Source of the DNA: Psychroserpens sp. NJDZ02 | Lineage (GTDB): Bacteria > Bacteroidota > Bacteroidia > Flavobacteriales > Flavobacteriaceae | DNA: 64,000 nt | Assembly: GCF_004843725.1 (NCBI RefSeq) | Contig: NZ_CP039451.1 | Coordinates: forward strand, 3,726,001 to 3,790,000 | Reading direction: 5' to 3' | Shown here: piece after piece, positions 2,070 through 22,778 of the stretch | Layout of the letters: each line of letters begins with the position of its first letter | Position numbering within the stretch: position 1 is the first letter of the stretch | Program-made: the position numbers and the translations under genes | The notes under the pieces: generated by a model | Told to the model about the DNA's origin: nothing | The model's database searches: none | Seen by the model: only the letters and a program-made list of their open reading frames with translations

Positions 2070-2176
2070 GTTTCACTTAGAACTCTTTACTTTAATCTTT
2101 TCACTTTCAACTTTCAACTTTCAACTTTTAGTTTTTCACTTTTAGTTTTTCACTTTAATCTTTTCACTTTAATCTC
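2070..2176. repeat. 7/14-nt periodic array spanning cusA 3' end and four-helix gene leader
   Basis: On the plus strand the stretch is built from ACTTT-initiated units: 14-nt units of the type ACTTTAATCTTTTC and ACTTTTAGTTTTTC, plus three 7-nt units ACTTTCA. All phases are multiples of seven. It contains the cusA stop codon at 2150-2152, so the last residues of CusA (IKVKRLK) are encoded by array units. Because seven is not a multiple of three, gain or loss of units on the coding side would change the CusA tail. From memory, similar ACTTT/GAAAG arrays accompany solitary four-helix-bundle genes in Bacteroidota; that link needs a search. Confidence 0.8.
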
Positions 2177-5100
2177 TTCTCTCCAGCTATATAAAACTGG
2201 GACAATAAAATAGGAGGTAATGTCAATAACCATCCCTCCGAATATTGGAATAGCCATCGGAATCATAATATCGCTTCCTTTACCTGTGGATGTTAAAACG
2301 GGTAACAACGCTAAAATGGTGGTTACTGTAGTCATTAAACACGGACGAATACGTTTTTCGGCAGCATGTAAAGCAGCAGCTCTAATACTTTTTTTGTCAG
2401 ACGGTTTTTCGCGATCAAAAGTTTGTGTTAAGTAGGTAGCCATAACTACACCATCATCTGTAGCAATACCAAATAGTGCAATAAAACCGACCCAAACTGC
2501 GACACTTAAATTAATGGTTTTCATATTAAAAAGGTCTCGCATATTCTCGCCAAACAAGCTAAAGTTGAAAAACCAATCTTGACCGTATAACCAAATCATG
2601 ATAAAACCACCAGCAAATGCAACCGTAATTCCGGTAAATACCATTAATGATGTGCTAACAGATTTAAACTGAAAATAAAGTATTAAAAAGATGATAGCCA
2701 ATGCTAACGGAACAACAACAGACAATGTTTTTTCTGCTCGTAATTGATTCTCATAAGTTCCAGTAAATTTATAACTGACCCCTTTTGGAACAATTAGATC
2801 TCCGGACTCTATTTTTTGTTGAAACAAGGCTTGTGCATTTTCTACAACATCAACTTCTGCAAAACCATCCAATTTATCAAACAAGACATAACCTACTAAA
2901 AAAGTGTCTTCACTTTTTATGACTTGTGGACCTTGCTCGTATTTAATGGTTGCCAATTCACTTAAAGGAACAGGACTACCCGTTTCTACAGGAATATAAA
3001 TATCTTTTATATCTTCCGGATTACCACGTAACTCTCTTGGGTACCGCACTCTTACAGCATAACGTTCTCGTCCTTCAACGGTTTGTGTTAATGCCATACC
3101 GCCAATAGCAACTTTTAAAACACTTTGTACATCTGCTATTGAAATGCCATAGCGTGCTATTTTTTCTCTATCGATATCAATTAGTAAGTAAGGTTTACCA
3201 ACAATTCTATCTGCAAAAACAGCTTCTATTTTAACACCTTCCGCTTGTTTTAGTAGACGTTCCAATTCTAAGCCAAAGGCTTCAATTTGTTTTAAATCTT
3301 GACCTTTTACTTTAATTCCCATTGGCGCACGCATACCGGTTTGTAACATGACCAATCTGGTTTCAATAGGTTGTAATTTTGGTGCAGACGTCACGCCTGG
3401 TAATTTGGTGACGCGTACAATTTCGTTCCAAATATCATCAGGACTTTTAATTTCTGGTCGCCAGTTTCTGTAATATTCACCGTTGTTATCTTCGATAAGT
3501 TGTTCTTTTGCATTAAGAGATTGCCACGCTTCACTTTGTTCTGCTCGCAATGACATTCCGTTTTTCAACTCAAACATCCCATCAGCATTCACTTTATAAC
3601 GTTGTCTTTTTCCTTCGGAATTGCGCATGTATTCCGATTTATATTGAATCATGTTTTCATACATGGATAAAGGCGCAGGATCTAAAGGCGAATCTGTTCT
3701 ACCAGCTTTTCCCACTACAGTTTCAATTTCTGGAATAGTCGCAACCGCCATGTCTAATTGTTGAAGCACACGTTTGTTTTCTTCAACACCAGCATGTGGC
3801 AAGGAGGTTGGCATTAATAAAAACGACCCTTCATTTAAGGAAGGCATAAACTCTTTTCCTGTATTTTTCATAATCCAAAATCCAGATATAAGAACGGTCG
3901 CAGGAATTATTAAAAACAACACTTTATTGGCTAGAGCCCAGTTTAGAATCTGACTATAATACCTTCTAAAAACAGAAAACACACCTAAAATTCCGAAGCA
4001 TATAATAGCAACAAAAATAAGATTGACAATGATACTGCGGTTAAAACCTAACGGTCTCCAATATTCGGCAAGTAGACATACAATTGCAATCGAAGAAATA
4101 ATAATATTTATTAGATTTATTTTCTTCTTATCTAATCTCTTTAAAACACCTAGTAAACCAGTGATACCAAAAGCGACTAAGAGTAATCCTAACCAAAAAC
4201 CGTTAATAATAATTGCAATTCCCGCAAGTATTAAAACGCCATTTAAAAAATATCTAAAGGAATTTTTTAATGTTGTTTTTCTGAATAAATACGCTGCAAA
4301 AGGGGGAATTAAAAACAAGGCGATTACCAAAGAGGCTGATAATGCCATCGTTTTTGTAAAGGCTAAAGGTCTAAACAATTTCCCTTCTGCACCAATCATA
4401 GTAAATACGGGTACAAAACTGATAATAGTAGTTAAAACGGCAGTTAAAATAGCACCAGATACTTCCGCAGTAGCGTTGTATATGATTTCGTTTATTGACA
4501 ACTTATTATTTTCAACAGCATTGTGATTATTCTGAAGAGATTCCTCGTTACTCGTGCCTCGCGCTGTCGGAATGACATTTTCATTGTCGTCCAGATGTCG
4601 AATCATGTTTTCGGCGAGTATGACACCAACATCAACCATAGTTCCAATAGCAATAGCAATACCCGAAAGCGCCACAATATTGGCATCTACGTTAAACAGT
4701 TTCATGGCAACAAAAACCATTAAAACAGCAACTGGTAGTAATCCTGAAATTAAAATAGAAGCTCTTAAATTAAAAACCATTATTATAATCACCAAAATGG
4801 TAATTAATATCTCTAGCGTCAATGCTTCATTAAGCGTGTCTAAGGTTTCTACAATTAGTTCTGAGCGATCGTAAAAAGGAACCACCGTTAATTGAGAGGT
4901 GCGTCCATCTGCTAACACTTTAGATGGTAAACCGCCTTTAAGCTCGTTAATTTTTGCTTTTACATTGGTAATGACTTCCATCGGATTGGCGCCATATCTT
5001 GCCACTACAACACCACCAACAACTTCTGCACCTTCTTTGTCTAAAATCCCTCTTCGTGCAGCAGGACCTAAGGTAACCTTACCAATATCTTTAATTTTAA

Positions 5101-5920
5101 TAGCCGTAAAGTCGGCGGAAGTCACCACAGCGTTTTCAATATCTTCAACAGATTTTACATAGCCTAAACCACGTACTAAATATTCGGCTTGATTAATTTC
5201 TAAGGTCTGTGCACCAATGTCTTGATTACTATTTTTAACCGCTTTTACAACTTGGTTTAAACCAATATTGTATTGGCGCATTAATTCGGGATTAACATCG
5301 ACTTGATATTCTTGAACATAACCACCAATAGAAGCGACTTCAGCAACACCACTAGCAGAAGATAAACCATATTTTACATAGTAATCTTGAATACTTCTTA
5401 GTTCTTGTAGGTCCCAACCACCAGTGACGTTTCCGTCTGCGTCACGACCTTCTAAAGTGTACCAAAATATTTGCCCTAAACCTGTAGCATCCGGTCCTAA
5501 AGCAGGATTTACATCTTCTGGCAATAAGTTACTTGGTAAAGAATTTAACTTTTCTAAAATACGACTACGGCTCCAGTAAAACTCAACATCTTCTTCAAAA
5601 ATGACGTAGATACTAGAGAATCCAAACATAGACGAACTACGAATGGTTTTTACTCCAGGAATACCCAATAGGGAAGAGGTTAATGGATAGGTAATTTGAT
5701 CCTCAATATCTTGAGGCGATCGACCATCCCATTTTGTGAATACAATTTGTTGGTTTTCGCCAATATCAGGAATGGCATCTACAGCAACAGGATCGCTTGG
5801 TAAAAAGCCACTGTCCCAATTAAAAGGTGCGTTTACAGTTCCCCAACCAATAAAAAGGGCGAGCAATAATACGGCTACGAGTTTGTTTTCTATTAGAAAT
5901 TTAATGCTTCTATTTAGCAT
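2150..5920 (-). CDS. cusA: CusA/CzcA-family heavy-metal RND efflux pump
   Basis: The 1256-residue inner-membrane pump exports Cu(I)/Ag(I) (or related ions) by proton antiport, together with the TolC-like channel encoded downstream. The first membrane helix is at residues 9-30. The TM4 motif reads GIAIAIGTMVDVGVILAEN, which resembles the monovalent-metal (HME4, CusA) class more than the divalent classes. A Met-rich segment (MLQTGMRAPMG) lies in the porter domain, and the tail has the typical RIRPCLMTT and GSDIMIPMAIP segments. An extra membrane block at about residues 550-660, also seen in Bacteroidota CusA proteins, makes it longer than E. coli CusA (about 1047). Two short segments, one near residues 450-461 (IPTARGTSNEES) and one near residues 790-801 (MSLRAEQSEAWQ), are translations of dispersed palindromic repeats. 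The C-terminus IKVKRLK comes from the 7-nt array. No cusB is visible in the window; it may lie beyond the left edge. Confidence 0.93.
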   Translation of the reverse strand: MLNRSIKFLIENKLVAVLLLALFIGWGTVNAPFNWDSGFLPSDPVAVDAIPDIGENQQIVFTKWDGRSPQDIEDQITYPLTSSLLGIPGVKTIRSSSMFGFSSIYVIFEEDVEFYWSRSRILEKLNSLPSNLLPEDVNPALGPDATGLGQIFWYTLEGRDADGNVTGGWDLQELRSIQDYYVKYGLSSASGVAEVASIGGYVQEYQVDVNPELMRQYNIGLNQVVKAVKNSNQDIGAQTLEINQAEYLVRGLGYVKSVEDIENAVVTSADFTAIKIKDIGKVTLGPAARRGILDKEGAEVVGGVVVARYGANPMEVITNVKAKINELKGGLPSKVLADGRTSQLTVVPFYDRSELIVETLDTLNEALTLEILITILVIIIMVFNLRASILISGLLPVAVLMVFVAMKLFNVDANIVALSGIAIAIGTMVDVGVILAENMIRHLDDNENVIPTARGTSNEESLQNNHNAVENNKLSINEIIYNATAEVSGAILTAVLTTIISFVPVFTMIGAEGKLFRPLAFTKTMALSASLVIALFLIPPFAAYLFRKTTLKNSFRYFLNGVLILAGIAIIINGFWLGLLLVAFGITGLLGVLKRLDKKKINLINIIISSIAIVCLLAEYWRPLGFNRSIIVNLIFVAIICFGILGVFSVFRRYYSQILNWALANKVLFLIIPATVLISGFWIMKNTGKEFMPSLNEGSFLLMPTSLPHAGVEENKRVLQQLDMAVATIPEIETVVGKAGRTDSPLDPAPLSMYENMIQYKSEYMRNSEGKRQRYKVNADGMFELKNGMSLRAEQSEAWQSLNAKEQLIEDNNGEYYRNWRPEIKSPDDIWNEIVRVTKLPGVTSAPKLQPIETRLVMLQTGMRAPMGIKVKGQDLKQIEAFGLELERLLKQAEGVKIEAVFADRIVGKPYLLIDIDREKIARYGISIADVQSVLKVAIGGMALTQTVEGRERYAVRVRYPRELRGNPEDIKDIYIPVETGSPVPLSELATIKYEQGPQVIKSEDTFLVGYVLFDKLDGFAEVDVVENAQALFQQKIESGDLIVPKGVSYKFTGTYENQLRAEKTLSVVVPLALAIIFLILYFQFKSVSTSLMVFTGITVAFAGGFIMIWLYGQDWFFNFSLFGENMRDLFNMKTINLSVAVWVGFIALFGIATDDGVVMATYLTQTFDREKPSDKKSIRAAALHAAEKRIRPCLMTTVTTILALLPVLTSTGKGSDIMIPMAIPIFGGMVIDITSYFIVPVLYSWREEIKVKRLK
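3517..3554. repeat. Dispersed palindromic repeat inserted in frame in cusA (copy 1)
   Basis: The plus strand reads GAGATTGC at one end and GCAATGAC at the other, with a T- and C-rich middle. The complement is the GTCATTGCGAGC...GCAATCTC form that I recognise as a common dispersed repeat of Bacteroidota genomes. It falls inside the cusA reading frame and is translated as MSLRAEQSEAWQSL, in the periplasmic porter region between otherwise conserved segments. It introduces no stop and no frameshift. Identification as a repeat family is from memory; the inverted ends and the in-frame position are directly visible. Confidence 0.7.
4537..4576. repeat. Dispersed palindromic repeat inserted in frame in cusA (copy 2, variant family)
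   Basis: The plus strand begins GAGATTCC and ends GGAATGAC, the same architecture as copy 1 but with CC/GG in place of GC/GC and a G+C-rich core (CTCGTGCCTCGCGCTGTC) that contrasts with the AT-rich surroundings. It is translated within CusA as VIPTARGTSNEESL in a cytoplasmic loop right after TM4, where CusA relatives usually run directly from the HLD motif into the next helix. The insertion preserves the frame. Confidence 0.7.
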
Positions 5921-8897: not shown

Positions 8898-11800
8898 TTA
8901 TCTGTAAAGTGTAAAATGTCCAACATATTCCTTGTCCAATAGTGTGCTATTAGTTTTTACTACGTACCAGTAATCTCCTGTCGGCAATTCTGTTCCGTTG
9001 TATGTACCATCCCAATATTGACCAACACGGTATGTTGCTATTTTACGACCATAACGATCGAAAATATCAAAAGTTAAGTCTGGGAAATCCTCTACACAAC
9101 CTGGTGCCCAAGTATCTACAACACCATCATTATTTGGTGTAAAATAGTTTGAAATACATGGTCCAACTAGTTCTATATTAATTCTTGCTTCCGCTTGACA
9201 ACCTGCGCTATCTGTAACTACTACTGTGTAATAACCAGCTTCTGTTACGACATATTCACTTTGACTGCCATAATTGATATTGTTTAAAGTATAATTGTAG
9301 TCTCCTGTACCACCTGTTGTTTCTGCTATGATACCACCTGGCTCATCTCCTTCAACTAAAACTAAAGTTAATGGTTGGTAATCTTCAATAGTAAAGAACT
9401 CTGTGTATTGTACACAACCATTAGCATGTGTCACTTCGATATAGTGATCAACACCATTGGCATGGTCTACATTTGTAAAGATGTTACTTGCTTGACTACC
9501 GACACCGTCTAAAGAGAATTGTAATAAACTTAGATCTGTGATACTTTCATCTACATTAACCGTAACCGTATTTGAAAGTACATTATTATCACATAAGTAG
9601 TCTACTACAGCAACAGGATCAATTCTTACAGCTTCAGGGAAAGTAATATTCCATTCTGATTCACAACCTACAGCATCTCTAATAAATAATAGGTGATCTC
9701 CACCATTTAAATTAGTAAAATCAAAAACAGTTTGAGTTGCTGTTCCAGTAGTATATGTTCCATCATAGTCATCTAACACCACACTGTAAGGTAAGCTTCC
9801 TCCAGATATTTCGATACTAAAAGCACCATTGGCATCGCCTTCACAATTTTCTGGTAGAAGAGAACCTGAAACAATCTGAATTAAGACTGGTTCTGGATCT
9901 GTTATTGTAAATGTATCTGTGTAATAACATCCTAAAACATCTTGAGCAATAAACGTATACGTACCAGCTTCTAAGTTTTCAAAAACATTAGTTTCAAAAA
10001 ATTGATTTAGTTGTGGTGAAATCGCATATTTAATAATACCAGTTCCTCCACTAGCTGTAATCACTAATCGACCATCATCTTCTCCACTACAAGTAATATC
10101 AGTAGCTTCAAAATCAACTTGTAATGCTGAAGAAGGTTCAGTAATTGTAATTGAATCCGAATCCATAATACAGTTATTACTTGAAACCGTTACTGTATAT
10201 GTTCCAGCAATTAAATCGGTAAAAGTAGCAGGGTTGTCTGTTGTCACTTCAATAGTATTACCTAAACTGTCTTCCAATGTATAACTGTAGTTTCCTAATC
10301 CACCTTGTGCAGACGCTGTAATGGTTCCGCTATTATCTCCAAAACAATTAATCGTAGGATTATCACTGGTTAAAGTCAGCTCTAAATCAGGAAGTACATC
10401 TATAGTAATTTCATTTGAAACAATAGAAACACAACCATTAGCATCTCTAACATAGTATTGGTATGTTCCTGGTGTTACAGGAATTACTACTGAGGTAGTA
10501 AATGTTCCTAATACATTAGAGAAGTTACTTGTATCACTATAAGTATATATTCCTGTTCCTCCAGTTGCTGATAAAGTTAATTGGTAAGCAATAGGACAAG
10601 GTTGTGTACTAGAGTTTACTAAACTAGCGTCAATTTCTGTAGGTTGATTTATAACGATATCTACTGATGTCATTGTACAATTAAATCCATCCTCTATAGT
10701 TACAGAGTATGTTCCTGCGCCTAAGTCTGTAAAGACATTAGAAAGTTGTGGTCCCGAATTGCTTACACTAGGTGCCGAACTGTTAAGTGTATATGTGTAA
10801 TTAGCACCTTGTCCACCAGTAACATTAGTTACTGTTATACTTGCATCTTGATCTCCAAAACATGAAAGCAATGTTGCATTTGGCGTAAAAGTCGCATCAA
10901 TAGGTGTTGGTAATGCTAGAATTATATTTTCTGAAACAATACAACCTTGAAAGTCTCTAACGTTTACTGTATAACTTCCTGCTGACAGGTCTGTAAATTC
11001 GCCGTTAGTTGAATAAGGTACATTTGATGCTCCTGTTAATTCATATTCTAAATTACCCCATCCACCTGTACCAACAGCTGAAATAGTTCCCATATTATCA
11101 AGACAAGTTACAGACGTTTGCGTTGTTGTAAGCGCTAAAGCTGCTGTTGGTCTTGTAATTGTAAAGTTTTTAGTAACTGTACAGAATGGATTTCCTGTTA
11201 ACGTTGCATTTATAGTGTATGTCCCACCAACTAAACCTGTAATTGTTTCTGGTCCAGCATCGATGCTTGTACCAGAATCTACAGTTGTTCCAGAGCTATC
11301 TAAAACAGTATAGTTAAATTGTCCTGATTGATCTGGGTTAGTCGCTGAAACAACATCATCTATAAAAGTAACATTAACACTACCATCATTATCATTAAAA
11401 CAAGTCACATCAACAACTGTATCTATAATAAGATCAAAAGTGTTTGGATTGTTGACATAATGTACATCTTGTAGTGTACAACCAGAATCTAAATTTGTAA
11501 CAGAAATAATATAGTTGGCAACATCCAATCCGGTGAAAACACCTGTTGTATTTGTTTGACTATAAACACCTCCTGTTACTGATCCCGTAACATCTTCTAC
11601 TGTATATTCTAAGTTGGTTGGTGTACCATTACTTCCTGATGCAGTTACCGTAATATCTTCTAGATCATTACATGTAATTGGATTATCAACTGTTACAGTG
11701 ATAGTATCTAAGTCGATGTAAGGATTAATAACAACTGTTGTTGTTGTCGTCCCTAAACAACCTTTATCATCATAAACATTTACAGTATAAGTTCCTCCAG

Positions 11801-14800
11801 AAGCATCTGATTCTGTATAAACATTACTTGCACCAGATTGTACTACAGTACCACTTTCTACGAATTCGTATATAGTATAAGTTCCAGAACCACCAGTTAC
11901 TGAGCTTACAGTAATTGAAGCGTAATTAATAGTATTAGTATCCGTTGTACATTCATATTGAGTAACAGTAGGAGCAGAGACTACAATTATATTTGGTTCT
12001 GCAACAATAACATCTTCTGTTTCGAAACATCCTTTACCTGAATTTACTTGTACTGTATAAGTACCAGCAGCTAATCCTGTAAAGATATTCGAGTTTTGAG
12101 GTCCTACAACAATTGGTGCTGTGATCTCATAAGTATATACTGGGTTATCGTTAGTTGCAGGTAAATCTACAGTAATAACACCGTTGCTTTCTCCATTACA
12201 AGTAACATCGGTAGCAGTAGCTGTAAATGTAACAGGTGTTGCTATATCTAAAGTTACACTTGCAGTATTAGTACATGATGTTGCTGCATCCGTAATTGTT
12301 ACTACATATGTTCCTGAAGGTACTCCTGAGAATACATTTCCTGTTAAAGTTACTGAAGCAGGATTAGGACTTAAAGCGTAAGTATAACTACCTGTTCCAT
12401 TAATACCAGTTACTGTGATTTCTCCATCGTCATCAGAACAACTTGGCGAAATAGCTGCAAGTGTCAGTGCGATAGGATCGTCAATAGTGTAAGGTGCTGT
12501 ATTAATACATCCATTAGCATCTTTTACTGTAATGGTATACGTTCCAGCTGCATTAACTGTAAAGTCAGGACTTGATTGGAATCCACTACCTATACTATAT
12601 TCATAAGGTGCTATTCCTGAAGCGACACTGACTGTAAATGAATAATCATTTGTTCCACTTAAACATTGAGAACCAGCAATCGTAATTCCTGTTGGAATAG
12701 GATCTGTATCAATAGTGATAGCTAAAGGTGTAGTGATAACACAACTATTAGTGTCTTGAACATAAACCTCCCAAGCTGTAGAGATTGCTGGGTCTAATAC
12801 AGCAGAGTTTGAACTTGAATACGTTCCTGCAGGAAAACCACTTACTACAAATGAATAACTGTAAGATCCATTTCCTCCAGAAGCAGTTACACTGACTTGA
12901 GCACCATCATTACAATTTGCATTGATGTTAGTATCTAACACTAGACTTAGTGGAGTAGCTTGTGCTACATCAATAGAGGTCGTTGCAGTACATCCTGTCG
13001 TTTCGTCAGTAATTAGAATAGTTTGAGTACTTGCTGATGTCAAACCAGTAACAGAAACTGTAGCACTAGTTTGTCCTGTTACCGTTGGAGCACCATTAAT
13101 TGAATAACTATAGCTTCCCGTAAAATTAGAGACTGTAAATGTTACTTCTCCGTCTGTTCCTGGGTTACAAGTGACATCACTTATTAATTGTCCTATCACT
13201 TCTATATTATCAACATCTTGTACGATATATAATTCTTGATAAGAACAACCGTTACCGTCGGTAACTTGAAAAGTATAGTTATCTACAGATAATCCTGTAA
13301 AGATACCAGTTGATGCTCCCGTTGTATTTGTAGTTGCACTTGCAGGAGATAAAATTTCAAAACTTAAAGCAGTAACACCTCCTGTAGTAGTTAACGTCAC
13401 ATCACTAGTACTAACTAAACATGTTATTGGAGTCGCGCTAAAATCTAAATCCGTTGGAGGATCTAAAGGATCAACTGCTATAGCACCTGTAACCTCACAA
13501 CCATTTGCATCTCTTACGATGTAATTAATAGTTTGTACAGTACCATTGTTGTTAACAGTAAACGTATTAGTTGTTGTGAAACCAGAACCATTAAAACTGT
13601 AATAGTACTCACCAGAACCTGTTGGCGTTCCATCTTGACCTAATACTGTAATGACTGTTGCGACATCACAATTAGTTATTGCAGAAAGAGACTCGGTTGC
13701 AGTTAAAACTATTGGCTCTGTTATTGTTATCGGAGCACTAGCATAACTACAAGAACTAGCATCTATAACTGTAACGATGTAAGATGTCCCTTGAGATAAA
13801 CCAGTAAATACGTTAGAACTTTGTGGTGTTCCACCATCTAATTGGTACATAAAAGGACCAGTTGCAGATGTTGTTGTTACTGTAATAGTTCCATCACTAC
13901 CACCATTACAACTAACATTAGTTTCTGCTGTTGTAAAAGTTGTAGGTATAATAGCATCTACATCTTGACTTGCTGTCGATTCACAACCAGCAGCATCAGT
14001 AACTATAAAATCGTAAGTTCCTGCTGTTGCAGCTGAATAAACGTTGGTTGCCATAGGGCTAAATGTAACACCACCATCTGTTGATACTTGATACGTATAT
14101 GATGCACTATCACCACCAGAAGCGGTTAAAGTGATTTCAGCATTTGGACTAGTTGTACAATCTAAAGCTTTAGTTAAATCAGCACTTAATAATACTTGAT
14201 CGTTAACAATGTATGGTGTTGAAGCCACACAACCGTTTCCATCTTGGATATACAAGGTATAGGTTCCTGCAGAAGCCACAGTAAAATCTGGACTTGAGAC
14301 AAAGGTTGTTCCATTCATACTATATAAAGGACTTCCTATAGTAACGGCACCAGTAATTGTAATATTTATTGGGTTACCAACAAAACACGGTGATGTTTGT
14401 GGATCTATTGTTGGTTCTAAATCTTTAACTAGCGTAACATCGAAGTCTCTAATACAACCGTAAGCATCAATAGCATAAACAGTATAATCACCAGCTGCTT
14501 CGTTAAACGTATTAGGTGATGCCCAAGCTGTACTTGTAGCATCAGGAGCAGTAGCTGACGCTAATAAAATTTGATATTGATAAGGCGCAGTACCATCGCT
14601 AGCAATTCCGGTAATAACACCTAAATCATTACAGTTTTCGTTAGAAGATACAGACGCTGTTAAGTTAAAAAGTATAGCAGACTCCGTGATATTAAACGGA
14701 TCTGTAGTTATACCACAATCCATATTTGAACCTGATGTTTCTGTAATAGTCACAAAATAGTTACCAAATGGTAGCGGTCCTAAATTACTAACAGAAAGTG

Positions 14801-17800
14801 ATCCATTTGCTGGTACCGTTCCAGATCCTGTTGCAGGTGGTGTTACTGGTGCTAATGTTAATGAATCAAATATCTCGTAAGTCACATCAATAGGCGCAGT
14901 TTGTGTATTATTTATTGTAAAAGACACATTACCATCAGCACTTCCTGTACATGTAATGTTATTAGAAACAACACTATCTACAGTTAATGTTGAATTTGTA
15001 GGTATTGGTGTAGTTGCTGTTTCATAATAATAACATTTGGTATCATCATCATATACTACAAAGGTATAAGTAACATCCGGAGTTAAACCTAAAAATGTTG
15101 TAGATACTGGTACTCCTGTACCTAATTGCCAAGTAGGTGATCCTGTAGGGATACCATCCCAAGTCATCCCTGGACCTGTGTATATTGCAAAATAGAATGG
15201 TCCAACACCTGTTATAGAACTACTAGAACCTATACTTACATCTGCTTGTCCACCAAGACCACAATCTAGTATTGTTGCGTCGATATTGATATCTAAATCA
15301 TCTGGTGGTGATGCTACTAGTATGTTTTGTTCTATAAAAGTACACCCATTTGAATCTGTAATTATTATTTCATAGATACCAAAATCTACAACTTCAAAAA
15401 CTTGAGTTGCACCATCTTGGTTAAGCACTTCTTGATTATAACCATTTACACCTGTTACATGATACGTATAATTTGCAGTACCACCAATAACTGAGTTTAT
15501 GATTATTTGACCAAGAGAAACACCAGTTGAACTACATGTAATTGGTGTTACATTAAAATCTAAAACAATTGGACTTGGTTCAGATATTGTAATTAGTTCT
15601 ACTTCTGTACAACCTCTAGCATCTGTTACAGTTACGGTATAATCACCAGCTGGTAGACCAGAAGTTTGAGAACCATAAGACGTACTTGTTGTTGTATTAT
15701 ATACTTCAAATACATAAGGTGCTTGACCTAAAGTTGTATCTGGTGTAATAGAAATTGCTCCGGTTTCTTCACCACTACAGTTAATAAAACCTGTTTGTGC
15801 AACTGTGATATCAGGAGTAACTGCTGGCGTGATTTCTATAGGAGTTGTTGTTACTACTGTACAAGAACTAGCATCTGTTACCATAAAAATATAGCTTCCA
15901 GGTGTTGTTGTATTTAGCACGTTAGTAGGCATAGTGGTATAAGTCGTTCCACCATCAGTAGAATACTCATAAGTATATATAGTATCTCCACCTGTAGCTG
16001 TTAAAGTGATTTGCGCTTCTTGTGGTAAAACACAGGTGATGTCTTTATCTAATACCGCTGCTAATGTTAATTGAGGATTAACTGTAACAGTATCTGTTAC
16101 TATACAACCATTACCATCTCTTACAGTTATAGTATAAGTTCCGGCTGTTACTGTAAATGTATTTCCAGTTTGGAAGTTTGTACCATCAATGCTATACATT
16201 AATGTAGCAATACCAGTTGCTGTTGCAGTAATAGTAAAATTATTACCTGTCCCAGTACATTGGTTATCTAGAGTTGCAGTTACAGTAGGTAAGTCATCAC
16301 GTATAATTGTAACTGTATCCATAACAACACAGTTATTACTATCCATGACATAAACATCAATTACCAACCCTAAAACACTAGTGTCTACAGTTGTTGATGT
16401 ACTATAATCAGTAGTGATTGGAGCAGTACCTCCTGAAGTTACGTAGGCGTAAGTATAAATACCTGTTCCTCCTGATAATGTAGTGAAAGTAATATTAGAA
16501 TCGTCTGTATTACAATTTACGTTACTACCGGTAGCGGTAAAGGTTATTTGTGTCGTTGGATCAATAGTTATTGAAGCAGAAGTAGAACATCCTGTTGCAG
16601 TATCTATGACATCAAACGTATAAGAACCCGCTGGTAAATCAGTTACGGTAACTTCGTTATCTGTTTGAGTTTGTGTTCCTACATTAGGTGTTAATGTATA
16701 CGTATAGTTTCCTAAACTGCTAACATCGGTCATTGTGAAAATAGCTGTCCCATCATCAGAACCAAAACAAACTTGATCCGTATTTGTATTAGCTACAGCA
16801 ATGTTAATGCTTGGAGCAATATTGTGAGAAGCACTAATTGTACAACCATTAGCATCTGTAATTTGGAACGTATAATTTCCTGGGGCTAAATTTGTAAATA
16901 CTCCAGTAGAAACACCAGAAACATTAGACGTTTCAGACGCAGGTGCTGTAATTTCAAATATAAACGGCGCAATACCATCTGTTGGTGTAACGGTTACTGA
17001 TGTTGTTGCATCGTTACACGTAATTACATTAGCATCCGCAAATGTCATTCCTGTTAAAGGATTGTATGGTGGAATTTCTATAGTTTCGGTATCAATACAA
17101 CCATTGCCATCTCTTACAGAATATGTAATTGTTTGCGCTGTAGCTGTATTAGTTACTGTTAATACGTTTGTAGCAGTGTATGCAGTACTTCCATTAAAAC
17201 TATAAGTATACGTACCAGTACCTCCAGAAGCCGCTACCGTAATATCCGTTGTAGTACTACAATTTGTATTATTAGATAGCGTAGCAGTAGCAACAATTTC
17301 GGTAGGATTATTTAAAGTAATCGTATAAATAGGTGATACACAACTATTAATATCTTGTATTTGGTAAGTGTAGTCACTAGTTATAGCTGTAGTTGTATTT
17401 GCATCTAGTCCTGTAAATAATGACGTCGAAGAAAATGCGCCACCATTAAAACTAAATGAATACCCTCCAGCACCACCTGCTGCAAACAATTGAATTTCAC
17501 CATTAGCATCATCAAAACATAAAGGATCAATGCCATTTGCAGTTCCTGTTGGTGTAGAAATAGCAGCAATAGTGTTAATTCCTGATTCAGCAGTACAACC
17601 TTGTGCATCCGTTACCTGAAATTGGTAAGTTCCTGCTGTTGGTATTGCATATGTAAATGGTGATCCAGTAGCACCTAAGTCAGTGTAAGGACTTCCATTT
17701 TCAGAAACGGCATATGTAAATGGTGCTAATCCGCCAGTTATCGTTCCGGTGATTTCAGCATCAGGCGTTGCAGTACAATCTAAATCTTTAGTTATTACAG

Positions 17801-20800
17801 CATTTAAAACCAATTCTGGTTGGATTGTTTCAGCTGCTAAAGTAACCTCACATCCAAAAGCATCTCTTACTATTATTGTATAAGTACCTGGAGTTAAATT
17901 AGCGAAATCGTTTTCATCTTGAAAGGCACCACCATTAATATTATATTGGTATGGTGTTACACCTCCAGAAGCAGTAACTTCTATTGTTGCACCACTAGCA
18001 GGATCAAAACAAAAATCTGAAGCAGTACTTATTGTAGCTGTAGGAGCAATTGGAGCGTCTAAAGTTAGTGTTGTCGATTCTGTACAACCTGCAGCATCTG
18101 TTAGTTCAATTGTATATGCTCCTGCAGCGACATCAGTTAATACACCATTTACAAAATTTGTTGTAGTAAAAGGTGTTACTGTGTCAATTAACTGAAAAGA
18201 ATAACCAGGTGTTCCTCCTGTGGCGCTTACTGTAATTGTAGCACCGTCTAAACAAGTCACCTCCGTATTAGTAAGGTCAATAGTCAATGGATTTGGTGCA
18301 GTTATTGTTTCTGTAAATGGAAACTCACAAGTATCAACACTATCATCGTAACGTATTATAACTTCATAGGTGTCATCCGTTAATCCAGTAATGGTGTATG
18401 GAGACGTCATTTGTGTAATCCAAGTCGCTCCATTATCTATTGAATACTGAAATCCTAAAGTCGTATCAAAATTTTGAGCAGCAATTGTTATTTCACCATC
18501 TGAATCTCCCGAGCAAGTAACCATTGACGTTCCTGTAATATCTGCAGTAAAAGCATTTCCGGAATCAATAATAAAAGGGAAATCTACTACTGTAGTACAA
18601 GAAGCTGGTAATTGAAACACTCTGATATCGTCTATAGCGACGTCATTACCACCATTTTGCTGTACATTAGATCTTAAAACAAAAGTTAAACTGGTGTTTG
18701 CACCAGGGTCTAATGTTGTAGGCGTGCTAGGGTATTCTATCCAATTATTTGTTTTTGGTATATCTCCTGTACTATAAGAATCAATTACATTACCACCAGC
18801 ATCTATTAAATCAACTACTAAATTAGGATCAAATCCACCAGTTCCAACTCTAAGTAAATTAAGAGCAGCAAATTCAACTTGTATTGGTTGATTAGGAATG
18901 ATATCATTAATTTGTTTTTCATATAAGATAGCTGTAACAGGAATAGATGATCCAATATTTACAACTAAAAATCTTCCATCTTGTGTTGGAGGAGTTGTTG
19001 CAGGCGTATGGTCAACAGGGTCTAACCATGTACCAAACGGATTTATAATATCTGATGTAACAGAATATTCTCCATCATTAATATGCGTAGTTCCATTACA
19101 AGCACCAGGTGCTATTTGATGTTCAAAGCAATAATAAGTTGTATTTATTCCAGGAGATGTAGTATTTGGACCATAACCAAAAGTTTCGTAAAGTAAATTA
19201 CTAAATGTAGGGACATCAAGTAAACTGTATTCTACACTTACCGTATGAGATCCTGTTGGCACATTTGTAAATGTTTGTGGATCTGCTGTGTTTGGGTTAA
19301 GTATCCCGTCTATATAGTAATCATAAGTATAATTAGTTCCCCCATTATTTGTTATGGTTACGGTAGCATTTCCAGAACCATCACAATTAAATAAAGTATC
19401 ACCAATTTCAATAGTTGGAGCAGGAGGCTCTTGGTCTAATATAGTATCGTCCATAGAAAACACACAACCATTAGCATCACGAATATATACTGTATAACTT
19501 CCTGGATCTACAAATGATTCATTTGATGTTATCCATGTTGCTTGGTTATCAAAACTATATTCATATAAATTAGGTGCAGGAAATGGTGTTCCACCTTGAG
19601 GGTTGGTAATTCTAATTGTTCCTTCTCCAGATGGTCCACAACCGGCAAGTGCAGATATACCTGCAGTTGCAGTTAAAGCTTCATCGGGTTGATTTATAGT
19701 AATTGTTTCTACTGTTGTAAAACATTCTGATGTATCAAGCGTATATTTAATTATGACAGGATAGTCACCACCACTTAAGTTAGAAAATGTAGGATTAGCA
19801 GTATATGTTGAGCCGTTATTAATACTAAATTCTAAAGTGTATCCATTAGCATTTGTGACATTAATTTGAATTTCACCAGTTGTATCATTATAACATAAAA
19901 CATCTGTTTGTGTTATGTTATATTCTGGATCAGGTATATCATTTAATGTAATACTTGTAGTAGCAATACAGTTATTAGAATCTACTACAGTAATATTGTA
20001 AGTCCCTGCAGATGTAACAACTATTTCTGGTACTGTTTGAAAGTCTGTTGTACTATTCACAAAATAGAAATAAGGGGCTGTTCCTCCTTGAGGATATACT
20101 GTAATTTCACCATCATTACAAGTCAAAGGACTTGTAATAGCCGATGTAGCAGTTAATAAATCTGGCTCTACAATAATTACATCTTCTGTGTAAGTACAGC
20201 CATCTTCTGTTGTTACTGTAGCAGTATAAGTTCCAGGGTTTAAGTTTTCAAAAGCATAGGTATTCTCTAAAATAGGACCAACACTATTAACTACTGTTCC
20301 ACCCATAGATAGCGTGTAGAAATATTGAGGATCAACATCATTTGCCGCTAATTGAATGGTTCCTTTATCGCCATTACACAAAGGTTGTAGTATTGTTGAT
20401 GTTACTGTAAAATTACGTTCTCTTATTTGAATGTCGGGAACTGTAAAAACACAAGGGTTTGTATCGATACCTGTTTGCACAATATAAACCGTATAAAGAC
20501 CTGCTGTATCAATAGCAAAAACGTTACTGTCTTGATATGTAACACCATCTAAACTGTACTCGTAACCTGAAGGCACATTATTAACGGTAATACTTCCATC
20601 AGTAGTACAAATGATATCTGTAGAAACAACGGTTGCTTCCAATAAGTTTTGATACACATTAAAATAGAATTGTACAAAACAACCACCAGCATAATTAATA
20701 GTTAATCTGAATTGACCAGAAGTGTTTGCTAAATAGTCAGATCCAGTTTCCACTTCGTTCCATACACATGAATTATCTTCATTTGCACAATCTGTATTGG

Positions 20801-22778
20801 TGACTGCCGTACAGCTAGACTCGTCTAGTTGTTCCCATATAATGGATGATGCTCCAGTAATATTTGTTTCAATAAGTGTTGAATCATTTATACCACATAA
20901 AAATATATTTGGTAATAATTTCCCATTGTTAGGACAAGTTACGACTTCATCAGCGTAAGGTATTACAGGATTTTCCAACGAACCACCAAAAAGGTCTACA
21001 TTAAATTGTTGTGTTATTGATTGACAAGGTGCTATAGCAGTGTTATATACATAATAAGTTCCTGTTTGATCAACAGTTATACTTTGACCAGTTCCAATTA
21101 CTGGCGATCCAGTATCACTAGTAGACCAAGAATAAGAATCGTATCCATCAGCAGCGGTCAATTCTAAAGTTGCCCCACATAATACTTCATTTTGAACAAA
21201 AGTACAGTCTAATTCTGCTAAGAAGTTAGTCGCTTGAGGTGTAAATAAACAACCGACGTTACTGTTTAAACTAGGATCATCTGTTAGTTCAAATTCAGAA
21301 TTTAAAGTTCCGTAATAAGTAGCATATGCTTGGTTGGTAACTATATTTGAACAAGCATCTGCTAATTGATTACAAGCATCAACAACACTGGCTTCTATTC
21401 TAATTTCATAGACAGGATCATTTTCTTCAACCAAATAATTTGCAACATCCAATAAAAGTGTTCGTGTTCCAGGATCGTAACTTGCTACTGTAACACCAGC
21501 AGGAAGGACTAAACCTGAAGGATAATCAAAAGTTATATTTACGGGTAAAATATCTTTAATTTGAAAACTGGTAGCATCATCATTTCCGGTATTTTGAAAA
21601 CCAATAACATAATTTAACGCATCTCCTAAATCAATCGTTGTTCCTGAAATGTCATTTCCTGCGTCATCTTCTACTGTTTTTGTCAATACAATATTGGGTT
21701 CAATTATATCTACTGCTAATGCAAAAAAGTAAGGAAAATAAGTGTCTCCATTCGTTTCTAAACTTACGATTGCCGATGTGGCATCATTAGCAATCACTAA
21801 GTTACTAGGATTATCAACAGCCAAAATACCTGTATCAAAACCTAAAGTATTTGTACTATTTGGTACTCTATCATCAACAGGTAAACCACTTAATTGAGTA
21901 ATAGAACTGTTAAAAAAGTTATTTTGGTCTCGATCATCACTTCTTAAAGCAGTACCATTAAGTCTTAAACGGTCACCAAAAATTTGTTTATCACCTTCTA
22001 ATGCTGCAAACGCAAAATTTGCTCGTACTGGAGTAGGATTAGGAACTGTTCTAAAACCACTAATTGGAATATCTGCGTTCGGATTTTCTGAAAGACTAAT
22101 TGCACTAAAACCATCAAAACTTGTTATTGATTTACCAGTTAATGTCGGATCTTCATAAACAATAAAAAGAGACCAACCAGCTGATTGACCTGTACCGTTA
22201 GAATCATCTTGGGATCTACCTTGAGCAGAAGACACATTAGCTACAGTATAAGTTCCTAAATCAGATACTGACCCAAAGGCCGTTACAATGTCTGTAACAT
22301 TTGCGTGACAGGCATAAGAATAACTATCCCCTCCATCAACAGAATTAGTACCGGCATCGTATATAACAGTACCTGTAATATCATTATAGCCCCCAGTAGG
22401 ACCTTTTAATTTAACGTCTGTAATTGATTGACTACCAGGATTAACCGCTGCCCAATATAAATCTGCTCTAATTATACGATAGCAGTCTATGTTTGGAATA
22501 GTTAAGTCTGCACTAGAAGAACTGAATGTAGAAGCATCACTATCAATGTCAATATATCGCATATTGACTTGGTTATTATATGCATTATTGTTATTAAAAG
22601 CAGAATTGCCAGGACCAAGAATATTGTTTCCAATAAGGACAATATCTCCTTTTACATCCATGTCAAATGTTGGCGGATTAGCATCAACAAAAGGCACATA
22701 ATTTTGACTATAAGATGTAAAGCCTAAAAACAGTATAAATGCCGTAATGAGAACTTTAGAAAAAGTAGGATTTTCCAT
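8898..22778 (-). CDS. sprB: SprB-type giant gliding adhesin (4626 aa), T9SS type B cargo
   Basis: A secreted cell-surface adhesin that is moved along the cell during gliding in flavobacteria. Order of parts: signal peptide (about 1-24); N-terminal beta domain (to about 355), including the motif DMDVKGDIVLIGNN; a DUF11-like repeat domain (about 360-480, with GDALNYVIGFQNTGND); and a Cys-rich linker region to about 715. About forty SprB repeats follow, to about residue 4535, each with the pattern C...DG.I.V...GG...Y.Y...L..G.Y...V.D..GC. A jelly-roll-like domain (about 1185-1390, ending AIDDIRVF) interrupts one of the early repeats. The C-terminus (about 4543-4626) is a type B T9SS sorting domain with YFTPNNDGVVDTW, FDRYGR and LPTGDYWYVV. 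It is shorter than F. johnsoniae SprB (about 6500 aa). Neighbours sprD (67 nt before) and sprF (22 nt after) confirm the assignment. Confidence 0.92.
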   Translation of the reverse strand: MENPTFSKVLITAFILFLGFTSYSQNYVPFVDANPPTFDMDVKGDIVLIGNNILGPGNSAFNNNNAYNNQVNMRYIDIDSDASTFSSSSADLTIPNIDCYRIIRADLYWAAVNPGSQSITDVKLKGPTGGYNDITGTVIYDAGTNSVDGGDSYSYACHANVTDIVTAFGSVSDLGTYTVANVSSAQGRSQDDSNGTGQSAGWSLFIVYEDPTLTGKSITSFDGFSAISLSENPNADIPISGFRTVPNPTPVRANFAFAALEGDKQIFGDRLRLNGTALRSDDRDQNNFFNSSITQLSGLPVDDRVPNSTNTLGFDTGILAVDNPSNLVIANDATSAIVSLETNGDTYFPYFFALAVDIIEPNIVLTKTVEDDAGNDISGTTIDLGDALNYVIGFQNTGNDDATSFQIKDILPVNITFDYPSGLVLPAGVTVASYDPGTRTLLLDVANYLVEENDPVYEIRIEASVVDACNQLADACSNIVTNQAYATYYGTLNSEFELTDDPSLNSNVGCLFTPQATNFLAELDCTFVQNEVLCGATLELTAADGYDSYSWSTSDTGSPVIGTGQSITVDQTGTYYVYNTAIAPCQSITQQFNVDLFGGSLENPVIPYADEVVTCPNNGKLLPNIFLCGINDSTLIETNITGASSIIWEQLDESSCTAVTNTDCANEDNSCVWNEVETGSDYLANTSGQFRLTINYAGGCFVQFYFNVYQNLLEATVVSTDIICTTDGSITVNNVPSGYEYSLDGVTYQDSNVFAIDTAGLYTVYIVQTGIDTNPCVFTVPDIQIRERNFTVTSTILQPLCNGDKGTIQLAANDVDPQYFYTLSMGGTVVNSVGPILENTYAFENLNPGTYTATVTTEDGCTYTEDVIIVEPDLLTATSAITSPLTCNDGEITVYPQGGTAPYFYFVNSTTDFQTVPEIVVTSAGTYNITVVDSNNCIATTSITLNDIPDPEYNITQTDVLCYNDTTGEIQINVTNANGYTLEFSINNGSTYTANPTFSNLSGGDYPVIIKYTLDTSECFTTVETITINQPDEALTATAGISALAGCGPSGEGTIRITNPQGGTPFPAPNLYEYSFDNQATWITSNESFVDPGSYTVYIRDANGCVFSMDDTILDQEPPAPTIEIGDTLFNCDGSGNATVTITNNGGTNYTYDYYIDGILNPNTADPQTFTNVPTGSHTVSVEYSLLDVPTFSNLLYETFGYGPNTTSPGINTTYYCFEHQIAPGACNGTTHINDGEYSVTSDIINPFGTWLDPVDHTPATTPPTQDGRFLVVNIGSSIPVTAILYEKQINDIIPNQPIQVEFAALNLLRVGTGGFDPNLVVDLIDAGGNVIDSYSTGDIPKTNNWIEYPSTPTTLDPGANTSLTFVLRSNVQQNGGNDVAIDDIRVFQLPASCTTVVDFPFIIDSGNAFTADITGTSMVTCSGDSDGEITIAAQNFDTTLGFQYSIDNGATWITQMTSPYTITGLTDDTYEVIIRYDDSVDTCEFPFTETITAPNPLTIDLTNTEVTCLDGATITVSATGGTPGYSFQLIDTVTPFTTTNFVNGVLTDVAAGAYTIELTDAAGCTESTTLTLDAPIAPTATISTASDFCFDPASGATIEVTASGGVTPYQYNINGGAFQDENDFANLTPGTYTIIVRDAFGCEVTLAAETIQPELVLNAVITKDLDCTATPDAEITGTITGGLAPFTYAVSENGSPYTDLGATGSPFTYAIPTAGTYQFQVTDAQGCTAESGINTIAAISTPTGTANGIDPLCFDDANGEIQLFAAGGAGGYSFSFNGGAFSSTSLFTGLDANTTTAITSDYTYQIQDINSCVSPIYTITLNNPTEIVATATLSNNTNCSTTTDITVAASGGTGTYTYSFNGSTAYTATNVLTVTNTATAQTITYSVRDGNGCIDTETIEIPPYNPLTGMTFADANVITCNDATTSVTVTPTDGIAPFIFEITAPASETSNVSGVSTGVFTNLAPGNYTFQITDANGCTISASHNIAPSINIAVANTNTDQVCFGSDDGTAIFTMTDVSSLGNYTYTLTPNVGTQTQTDNEVTVTDLPAGSYTFDVIDTATGCSTSASITIDPTTQITFTATGSNVNCNTDDSNITFTTLSGGTGIYTYAYVTSGGTAPITTDYSTSTTVDTSVLGLVIDVYVMDSNNCVVMDTVTIIRDDLPTVTATLDNQCTGTGNNFTITATATGIATLMYSIDGTNFQTGNTFTVTAGTYTITVRDGNGCIVTDTVTVNPQLTLAAVLDKDITCVLPQEAQITLTATGGDTIYTYEYSTDGGTTYTTMPTNVLNTTTPGSYIFMVTDASSCTVVTTTPIEITPAVTPDITVAQTGFINCSGEETGAISITPDTTLGQAPYVFEVYNTTTSTSYGSQTSGLPAGDYTVTVTDARGCTEVELITISEPSPIVLDFNVTPITCSSTGVSLGQIIINSVIGGTANYTYHVTGVNGYNQEVLNQDGATQVFEVVDFGIYEIIITDSNGCTFIEQNILVASPPDDLDINIDATILDCGLGGQADVSIGSSSSITGVGPFYFAIYTGPGMTWDGIPTGSPTWQLGTGVPVSTTFLGLTPDVTYTFVVYDDDTKCYYYETATTPIPTNSTLTVDSVVSNNITCTGSADGNVSFTINNTQTAPIDVTYEIFDSLTLAPVTPPATGSGTVPANGSLSVSNLGPLPFGNYFVTITETSGSNMDCGITTDPFNITESAILFNLTASVSSNENCNDLGVITGIASDGTAPYQYQILLASATAPDATSTAWASPNTFNEAAGDYTVYAIDAYGCIRDFDVTLVKDLEPTIDPQTSPCFVGNPINITITGAVTIGSPLYSMNGTTFVSSPDFTVASAGTYTLYIQDGNGCVASTPYIVNDQVLLSADLTKALDCTTSPNAEITLTASGGDSASYTYQVSTDGGVTFSPMATNVYSAATAGTYDFIVTDAAGCESTASQDVDAIIPTTFTTAETNVSCNGGSDGTITVTTTSATGPFMYQLDGGTPQSSNVFTGLSQGTSYIVTVIDASSCSYASAPITITEPIVLTATESLSAITNCDVATVITVLGQDGTPTGSGEYYYSFNGSGFTTTNTFTVNNNGTVQTINYIVRDANGCEVTGAIAVDPLDPPTDLDFSATPITCLVSTSDVTLTTTGGVTALSFEILSPASATTNTTGASTGIFTGLSVDNYTFQVTDGNGCSYQELYIVQDVDNIEVIGQLISDVTCNPGTDGEVTFTVSNFTGSYSYSINGAPTVTGQTSATVSVTGLTSASTQTILITDETTGCTATTSIDVAQATPLSLVLDTNINANCNDGAQVSVTASGGNGSYSYSFVVSGFPAGTYSSSNSAVLDPAISTAWEVYVQDTNSCVITTPLAITIDTDPIPTGITIAGSQCLSGTNDYSFTVSVASGIAPYEYSIGSGFQSSPDFTVNAAGTYTITVKDANGCINTAPYTIDDPIALTLAAISPSCSDDDGEITVTGINGTGSYTYALSPNPASVTLTGNVFSGVPSGTYVVTITDAATSCTNTASVTLDIATPVTFTATATDVTCNGESNGVITVDLPATNDNPVYTYEITAPIVVGPQNSNIFTGLAAGTYTVQVNSGKGCFETEDVIVAEPNIIVVSAPTVTQYECTTDTNTINYASITVSSVTGGSGTYTIYEFVESGTVVQSGASNVYTESDASGGTYTVNVYDDKGCLGTTTTTVVINPYIDLDTITVTVDNPITCNDLEDITVTASGSNGTPTNLEYTVEDVTGSVTGGVYSQTNTTGVFTGLDVANYIISVTNLDSGCTLQDVHYVNNPNTFDLIIDTVVDVTCFNDNDGSVNVTFIDDVVSATNPDQSGQFNYTVLDSSGTTVDSGTSIDAGPETITGLVGGTYTINATLTGNPFCTVTKNFTITRPTAALALTTTQTSVTCLDNMGTISAVGTGGWGNLEYELTGASNVPYSTNGEFTDLSAGSYTVNVRDFQGCIVSENIILALPTPIDATFTPNATLLSCFGDQDASITVTNVTGGQGANYTYTLNSSAPSVSNSGPQLSNVFTDLGAGTYSVTIEDGFNCTMTSVDIVINQPTEIDASLVNSSTQPCPIAYQLTLSATGGTGIYTYSDTSNFSNVLGTFTTSVVIPVTPGTYQYYVRDANGCVSIVSNEITIDVLPDLELTLTSDNPTINCFGDNSGTITASAQGGLGNYSYTLEDSLGNTIEVTTDNPATFTDLIAGTYTVTVSSNNCIMDSDSITITEPSSALQVDFEATDITCSGEDDGRLVITASGGTGIIKYAISPQLNQFFETNVFENLEAGTYTFIAQDVLGCYYTDTFTITDPEPVLIQIVSGSLLPENCEGDANGAFSIEISGGSLPYSVVLDDYDGTYTTGTATQTVFDFTNLNGGDHLLFIRDAVGCESEWNITFPEAVRIDPVAVVDYLCDNNVLSNTVTVNVDESITDLSLLQFSLDGVGSQASNIFTNVDHANGVDHYIEVTHANGCVQYTEFFTIEDYQPLTLVLVEGDEPGGIIAETTGGTGDYNYTLNNINYGSQSEYVVTEAGYYTVVVTDSAGCQAEARINIELVGPCISNYFTPNNDGVVDTWAPGCVEDFPDLTFDIFDRYGRKIATYRVGQYWDGTYNGTELPTGDYWYVVKTNSTLLDKEYVGHFTLYR
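10920..18055 (-). repeat. Second-order repeat in sprB: four blocks of seven SprB repeats
   Basis: Within sprB, repeat units seven apart resemble one another more than their neighbours. Marker units with a KDLDC/KDITC/KALDC core followed by AEITL or AQITL occur near 17780, 16035 and 14165, and the equivalent position is near 12445, giving a period of about 1.7-1.9 kb. The linkers agree: PIVL or EIVA before one unit, DLD/DLDF before the next, and a D-x-x-P linker six units on. This indicates that blocks of seven repeats (about 590 residues) were duplicated three times. The DNA copies are diverged, so the event is old or under diversifying selection. Confidence 0.7.

Follow-up and report, generated by a model that had tools for sequence, protein, structure and literature searches.

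In-frame palindromic repeats appear to have colonised two permissive loops of the metal-efflux permease CusA again and again in Flavobacteriaceae

Palindromic repeats that are translated as part of a bacterial protein have precedents. Rickettsia palindromic elements (RPE) are given as 105–146 bp in length in the available part of PMC2229807, and RPE-4 and RPE-6 have been classed as CGTC repeats, a group of CGTC-tagged palindromes (Di Nocera 2013, PMC3733652). Already known from the part of the latter paper available to us are, besides this classification, repetitive extragenic palindromes (REPs) lying in frame inside genes, as some copies of the CGTC repeats do, and REPs of different kinds occupying nearly the same position in recB of two Xanthomonas species; the same source names G. 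forsetii as CGTC-positive (PMC3733652). Are such insertions rare accidents or a regular source of new protein segments? This question has been raised ever since the Rickettsia reports. We take G. forsetii to be Gramella forsetii, a member of the Flavobacteriaceae.

The window analysed here comprises 64,000 nt of Psychroserpens sp. NJDZ02 (NZ_CP039451.1, positions 3,726,001–3,790,000), whose genome—G000 in the numbering of genomes (G) and loci (L) used below—is a single contig of 4,319,537 bases. It contains a cusA gene whose product scores 775.4 bits against TIGR00914, above the curated cut-off of 701.45, and is 99% identical over the searched region to CusA of Olleya sp. Bg11-27. The features of this locus, with F1 to F6 denoting types of element, are:

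2150..5920, minus strand: cusA, CusA/CzcA-type RND metal-efflux permease, intact ORF of 1256 aa
3517..3554, minus strand: element 1, F1 type, GTCATTGCGAGC..GCAATCTC, 38 nt, in frame in cusA
4537..4576, minus strand: element 2, F2 type, GTCATTCCGA..GGAATCTC, 40 nt, in frame in cusA
4502..4536, minus strand: putative decayed second half of a doublet (reverse F3-type), suggested by relatives
3470..3664, minus strand: site-1 loop, MYEN..RNWR, where relatives hold different elements
4493..4588, minus strand: site-2 loop, between TM4 and TM5

Both repeats are present as an earlier note had described them, in frame in an uninterrupted cusA and richer in G+C (0.50 in element 1, 0.575 in element 2) than the gene around them (0.367). 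On the coding strand of cusA, element 1 (minus strand 3554-3517) reads GTCATTGCGAGCAGAACAAAGTGAAGCGTGGCAATCTC and is translated in frame as MSLRAEQSEAWQ, SLRAEQSEAWQ being encoded by the 38-nt element and the G of GTC falling in third codon position; element 2 (minus strand 4576-4537) reads GTCATTCCGACAGCGCGAGGCACGAGTAACGAGGAATCTC and is translated as VIPTARGTSNEES, with GTC as a codon. From RND topology, the site-1 loop presumably connects TM7 and TM8, and the site-2 loop is presumably cytoplasmic. By alignment, most of the site-1 loop lacks a counterpart in E. coli CusA (3k07), whose residues 641 and 642 align to residues 763 and 818 of the query. An AlphaFold model of CusA residues 1-1200, based on 36 close homologues, reached a mean pLDDT of 33, too poor for an exposure test. 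Repeats of other kinds also occur in the window. Seven-bp repeats of the AGTGAAAA type (2063-2175) start within the 3′-terminal codons of cusA, which encode the tail EEIKVKRLK, and extend toward a 23S-rRNA-IVP four-helix-bundle gene (1707-2060); a repeat resembling this type sits, by eye, in frame at CusA site 2 of L068, L039 and L111. Further along (8898-22778, 23666-24805 and 34881-35711), the window contains a 4626-aa repeat-rich protein as well as 24/48-nt and 177-nt tandem repeats.

Judged by tag, tail and distribution, both window repeats are members of a dispersed palindrome superfamily, (C/T)GTCATT..AATCTC, whose elements lie mostly between genes. The earlier note was right about the common end signature but not in seeing two different families: tag and tail are alike, and the two are variants within one superfamily. 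For the loose signature GTCATT-N14-40-AATCTC, chance predicts 0.28 matches in the window, and two matches were reached by 4 of 100 shuffles; within the window alone this form is thus weak evidence. Across 60 related genomes, three generic signatures yielded 262 matches (103, 136 and 23) against 3, 0 and 0 in backward-read controls. The set of 103, obtained with GTCATTSCGA..SAATCTC, includes two overlapping pairs (G026:C7 and G005:C1), and all three of its control matches stem from one genome. Within the own genome, the generic signatures match 30 times in 4.3 Mb, and GTCATTSCGA..SAATCTC by itself gives 10 matches and none when read backward, which bears out the description of the repeats as dispersed. 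Related copies with the signature of elements 1 and 2 lie, for instance, near 1186603, 1685186 and 4183770-4196802, and GTCATTCTGAACTTGTTTCAGAATCTC is present in six copies. The base preceding GTC is C in 32 and T in 26 of 64 GTCATT copies (together 58), and both window copies carry TGTC. Ten of the 262 generic matches (5, 4 and 1 by signature) fall into cusA, compared with about 0.3 expected for such a gene length, in a comparison from which neither shared descent nor the two overlapping pairs were removed. When a 27-aa peptide of the F2/F3 doublet served as query, six matches were obtained in 4 of the 60 genomes, four of them in cusA; the other two, both in G014, contain a stop. Elements of further kinds were seen in the own genome: BIME-like clusters of plus- and minus-oriented GTCANNTTGAGC elements (G000:C1:3641608-3642549 and 4107130-4107534), and a GTCATTCTGAAC element that provides the last codons (RRHSELVSESH) of a gene that we call metH-like from reading its sequence (L005, G000:C1:887962).

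How does this superfamily compare with its closest described relatives? As far as the CGTC repeats are characterised in the available part of PMC3733652, these bear CGTC, TGTC or CCTC at one end, and the elements resemble them in the (C/T)GTC tag, a stem starting with AT, the occurrence of head-to-head doublets and the in-frame position of some copies. They differ from the 8–9-bp stem and 4–5-nt loop given there in that most copies have a 5-bp outer stem and a long core: the outer stem is perfect over 5 bp in the window copies and measures 5 bp in 75 of 79 copies of the GTCATTSCGA..SAATCTC pattern. In the own genome, by contrast, the F3 type has an 8-bp stem and a 5-nt loop, and thus has the stem of a CGTC repeat. 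Both window copies end in CTC, unlike the CCA of most CGTC repeats (PMC3733652, available part), though our search patterns required CTC. Single elements of 38 and 40 nt, and 72 nt for the clearest doublet (that of L098), also set the superfamily apart from the longer RPE, at least as sized in the part of PMC2229807 cited above.

To follow the two sites through relatives, we assembled 30 cusA loci plus the best 80 of at least 562, leaving 105 distinct genes after removal of five duplicates. A mismatch-tolerant scan, whose consensus sequences were derived from cusA copies, located elements in 32 genes, 30 of them with one at site 1, 10 with one at site 2 and 8 with both, and left 73 genes without any at either site; because many copies share descent, these counts are not independent. 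In the remaining 360 kb of the 105 genes the scan gave no match. Nor did it give one in 675 kb of DNA flanking the 80 loci, unsurprisingly, as about one generic match is expected per 0.7 Mb. The segments are missing from the CusA of many relatives, and related copies lie elsewhere in the genome; neither of the two outcomes that the earlier note had named as refuting it came about. Where that note takes relatives to be uninterrupted, it needs correcting, for many carry different elements at the same loops. Element 1 is present in G000 and G005 and absent from the 97% identical gene of G003, and F1-type elements recur in the cusA of other lineages. The F2 element at site 2 is found in G000, G003 and G005 (in the last deviating from the exact signature); most of the 105 genes lack it. 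At least five types occupy site 1: F1 (GTCATTGCGAGC..), F2 alone or followed by a reverse F3, F4 (GTCACCTTGAGCGCAGTCGAAAGG), F5 (GTCAGTTCGAGCGCAGTCGAGAAC) alone or followed by a reverse F4, and F6 (CCTTCGACAAGCTCAGG). Among 120 listed CusA proteins (8000 scored), sorted by simple peptide motifs with near-identical rows kept, site 1 was F1-like in 73, F2-like in 8, F4-like in 8 and other in 31, and site 2 was F2-like in 80 and without an element in 40.

Some genes come close to showing the empty site. In L042 and L052, ENEN and KLPINT are adjacent at site 2, and L098 has 24 extra codons between them; comparing the three by eye, we saw no clear target duplication. Two Winogradskyella loci, L066 and L068, differ in an F2-derived segment at site 1, where AAAAC may, again by eye, be found on both sides of the element. 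A second element in opposite orientation 3′ of the site-2 element is clear in L040, L041 and L098. In G000 itself this second half lies below the detection limit of the mismatch-tolerant scan; the stretch at 4502..4536 (minus strand) codes for most of LQNNHNAVENNK, and by comparison with these relatives the 3′ extension of site 2 appears to be what remains of a second, oppositely oriented element. Both loops, whose elements are absent or replaced in relatives, look permissive, as the earlier note had supposed. Given the length and variability of the site-1 loop over the 105 genes, one might ask whether this loop is merely a lineage-specific variable part of CusA that came to resemble REPs by convergence, with no mobile DNA involved. 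However, members of the superfamily lie between genes of the same genomes as well as in unrelated genes, F5/F4 doublets arranged as at cusA site 1 are found at four other places in G033, and G+C jumps at the elements; we give convergence next to no chance.

The occupants of these loops change quickly. In a cusA phylogeny that excluded the loops (a quick search, with support below 80 in 30 of 102 inner branches), the family state at site 1 must have changed at least 21 times, or at least 14 times counting presence alone, and that at site 2 at least 5 times. Within a single clade (L031, L032, L033, L064 and L065), with backbones about 95% identical, site 1 holds F1, F4 or F2. F1 of L031 is 87–97% identical to that of L037, L042, L099, L103 and L109, with third codon positions at 50–58%; for L042 and L099 the values are 95% and 97%, with third codon positions at 55–56%, and for the more diverged L104 and L114, F1 identity is 82–84%. 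In six of the ten F1 genes, excluding L104 and L114 as well as L032 and L064 as near copies of L031, pS is 0.127 in the F1 element against 0.608 in the backbone. By these silent sites, F1 is far younger than its host genes. The site-2 insert, shared by descent among five close sequences, has a pN/pS of 0.68 there, compared with 0.037 in codons 1-430, which indicates that it is under weak protein-level constraint. Flanking sequence beyond the element is common to some F1, F4 and F5 alleles and not to others (L116). This points to both local recombination and separate insertion as likely contributors; where flanks are conserved, recombination of alleles would explain part of the spread without any new insertion.

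Turnover of this kind could also reflect diversifying selection on the CusA loops, for example through escape from phages or toxins, which would favour imported loops and find in the repeats a handy source. The fast replacement of site-1 alleles within genes about 95% identical fits this idea, but the site-2 insert has a pN/pS below 1, and LeuS and IcmF, which we take to be cytoplasmic enzymes, show similar turnover. We therefore attach hardly any credence to it. The comparison of these two proteins drew on 30 LeuS and 24 IcmF loci from 40 genomes, with types assigned by eye where no pattern matched. One loop of LeuS carries F2 in G007 and an F5-like element in G001 and G004. G000, G003 and G005 retain an F4-like remnant there, and the loop is free of elements in G002, G008 and G009; the IcmF element is present in G000, G001, G004, G005, G007 and G008 and absent from G002, G003 and G009. 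In the own genome, icmF (L237) thus has an in-frame element and leuS (L344) a remnant. Turnover at one loop in either protein is similar to that in cusA.

Which other genes accommodate the repeats? Among 209 distinct copies (the loci from L150 onward plus seven early loci), 26 lie inside ORFs of at least 200 aa, flanked on both sides by 20 aa or more, six of them in cusA; these 26 do not include the copies in cusA of G000 and G005. Within the 26, two copies (L242) overlap, L274 is doubtful, and those in IcmF of G000, G001 and G005 are related by common descent. The length limit excluded ORFs below 200 aa, among them two that consist of repeats (L164 and L183). The elements follow the orientation of the gene in 24 of the 26 intragenic copies, and in 21 of these 24 GTC is a codon. 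Hosts above the cut-offs of curated models are IcmF, LeuS, DNA polymerase I (the host at L219, by family scan), ValS, PDH-E2 and HemW; below the cut-offs are a 3-hydroxyacyl-CoA dehydrogenase, another E2-like protein and the HsdS-like protein of L150, and the hosts at L236 and L267 have a weak BREX methyltransferase match. F1 elements lie in frame near an end of HsdS-like genes at L150:15460-16953, L242:1502-2972 and L168:1436-2683, the HsdS label of the latter two deriving from reading the sequence. In-frame copies in unrelated conserved genes are a trait shared with RPE, and the likeness to Rickettsia palindromic elements that the earlier note had drawn is supported.

The same note had also considered that the elements act in the mRNA. 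Their nucleotides are indeed alike across distant genes, and the well-preserved doublet of L098 folds as RNA with a z-score of −2.71, a value that none of 200 shuffles equalled; a hairpin in cusA mRNA or DNA, affecting stability, pausing or protein binding, could then be what acts and the peptide a by-product. Yet for the two copies in the window RNA folding does not surpass that of shuffled sequence (z −0.52 and +1.01), diverged copies such as L100 and the second half at site 2 have lost the palindrome and kept the frame, and the 73 cusA genes scoring empty in the scan do without an element at either site, while the nucleotide likeness is equally well explained by recent arrival. For want of a folding signal in the window copies we rejected a function as mRNA hairpin and regard it as very unlikely.

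How the elements move is a separate matter. With their inverted doublets of short palindromes, and with a near-empty site that bears no obvious target duplication, they resemble REPINs, doublets mobilised by a resident RAYT-type (Y1) transposase of the IS200/IS605-like kind, and over 37 genomes at genus and family level copy number correlates weakly with the number of Y1_Tnp matches (rho 0.33, p 0.04). Over all 60 genomes, however, the correlation is rho 0.21 (p 0.11), and G007, G014 and G033 have no Y1_Tnp match, yet 20, 22 and 16 element matches. The tag is (C/T)GTC and not the GTAG of REPIN/RAYT systems, and 32 fetched Y1_Tnp loci, with about 1.5 kb on each side, contained no element, so that we found no Y1 transposase gene flanked by these repeats. 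In this respect the superfamily again resembles the CGTC repeats, which have no association with transposase genes according to the available part of Di Nocera 2013 (PMC3733652). With neither the Y1_Tnp survey nor the flank scans revealing a link, RAYT mobilisation was rejected; we consider it rather unlikely, and found no mobilising enzyme.

Our preferred reading, to which we assign a probability of roughly 0.85, is that RPE-like palindromes of the CGTC type have repeatedly colonised permissive CusA loops and been exchanged by local recombination, their peptides being tolerated spacers. It starts from what was observed: dispersed copies, in-frame presence and absence, turnover, a bias in orientation and frame, and weak constraint. 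Short, mobile, REP-like palindromes with a (C/T)GTC tag would have been inserted in frame into two tolerant loops, probably arriving as a hairpin-forming single strand by way of an enzyme or a replication-repair route. Insertion would be recurrent, as other families, alone or in head-to-head pairs, occupy these loops in relatives. An insertion would survive where a permissive loop allows the frame to be kept, mostly when the reading frame starts with GTC, and would afterwards either decay or pass between lineages by short-tract recombination, local recombination presumably acting as a second spreader. The resulting peptides would persist as tolerated spacers under weak constraint at the protein level. 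A bolder, tentative extension, to which we give somewhat less than even odds, is that the Flavobacteriaceae maintain an exchangeable pool of loop cassettes: several coding-competent palindrome families with a favoured orientation and frame that replace one another, are swapped between species in very short recombination tracts and so keep supplying new loops to housekeeping proteins (CusA, LeuS, IcmF, ValS and PolA). On this extension, selection for being translatable in one frame may even have shaped the elements.

Against the literature, what appears new is the turnover of several families at the same loops, together with silent-site evidence for it; the available part of PMC3733652 does not describe several genes in which one loop passes from family to family. 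Among the papers listed by our searches, none announces in its title or the opening of its abstract an in-frame palindrome in Bacteroidota, in Flavobacteriaceae or in cusA, and a flavobacterial entry among the intragenic REPs in the supplement of PMC3733652 is possible. Close species here provide a natural series of presence, absence and replacement at one loop, complete with outgroups and silent-site clocks, from which the rate of insertion, the frame bias, the tolerance and the decay of such elements become measurable. The series also carries a warning: where such proteins have variable loops, these may derive from repeats rather than be adaptive. Such repeats appear to rewrite the tolerant parts of proteins again and again.
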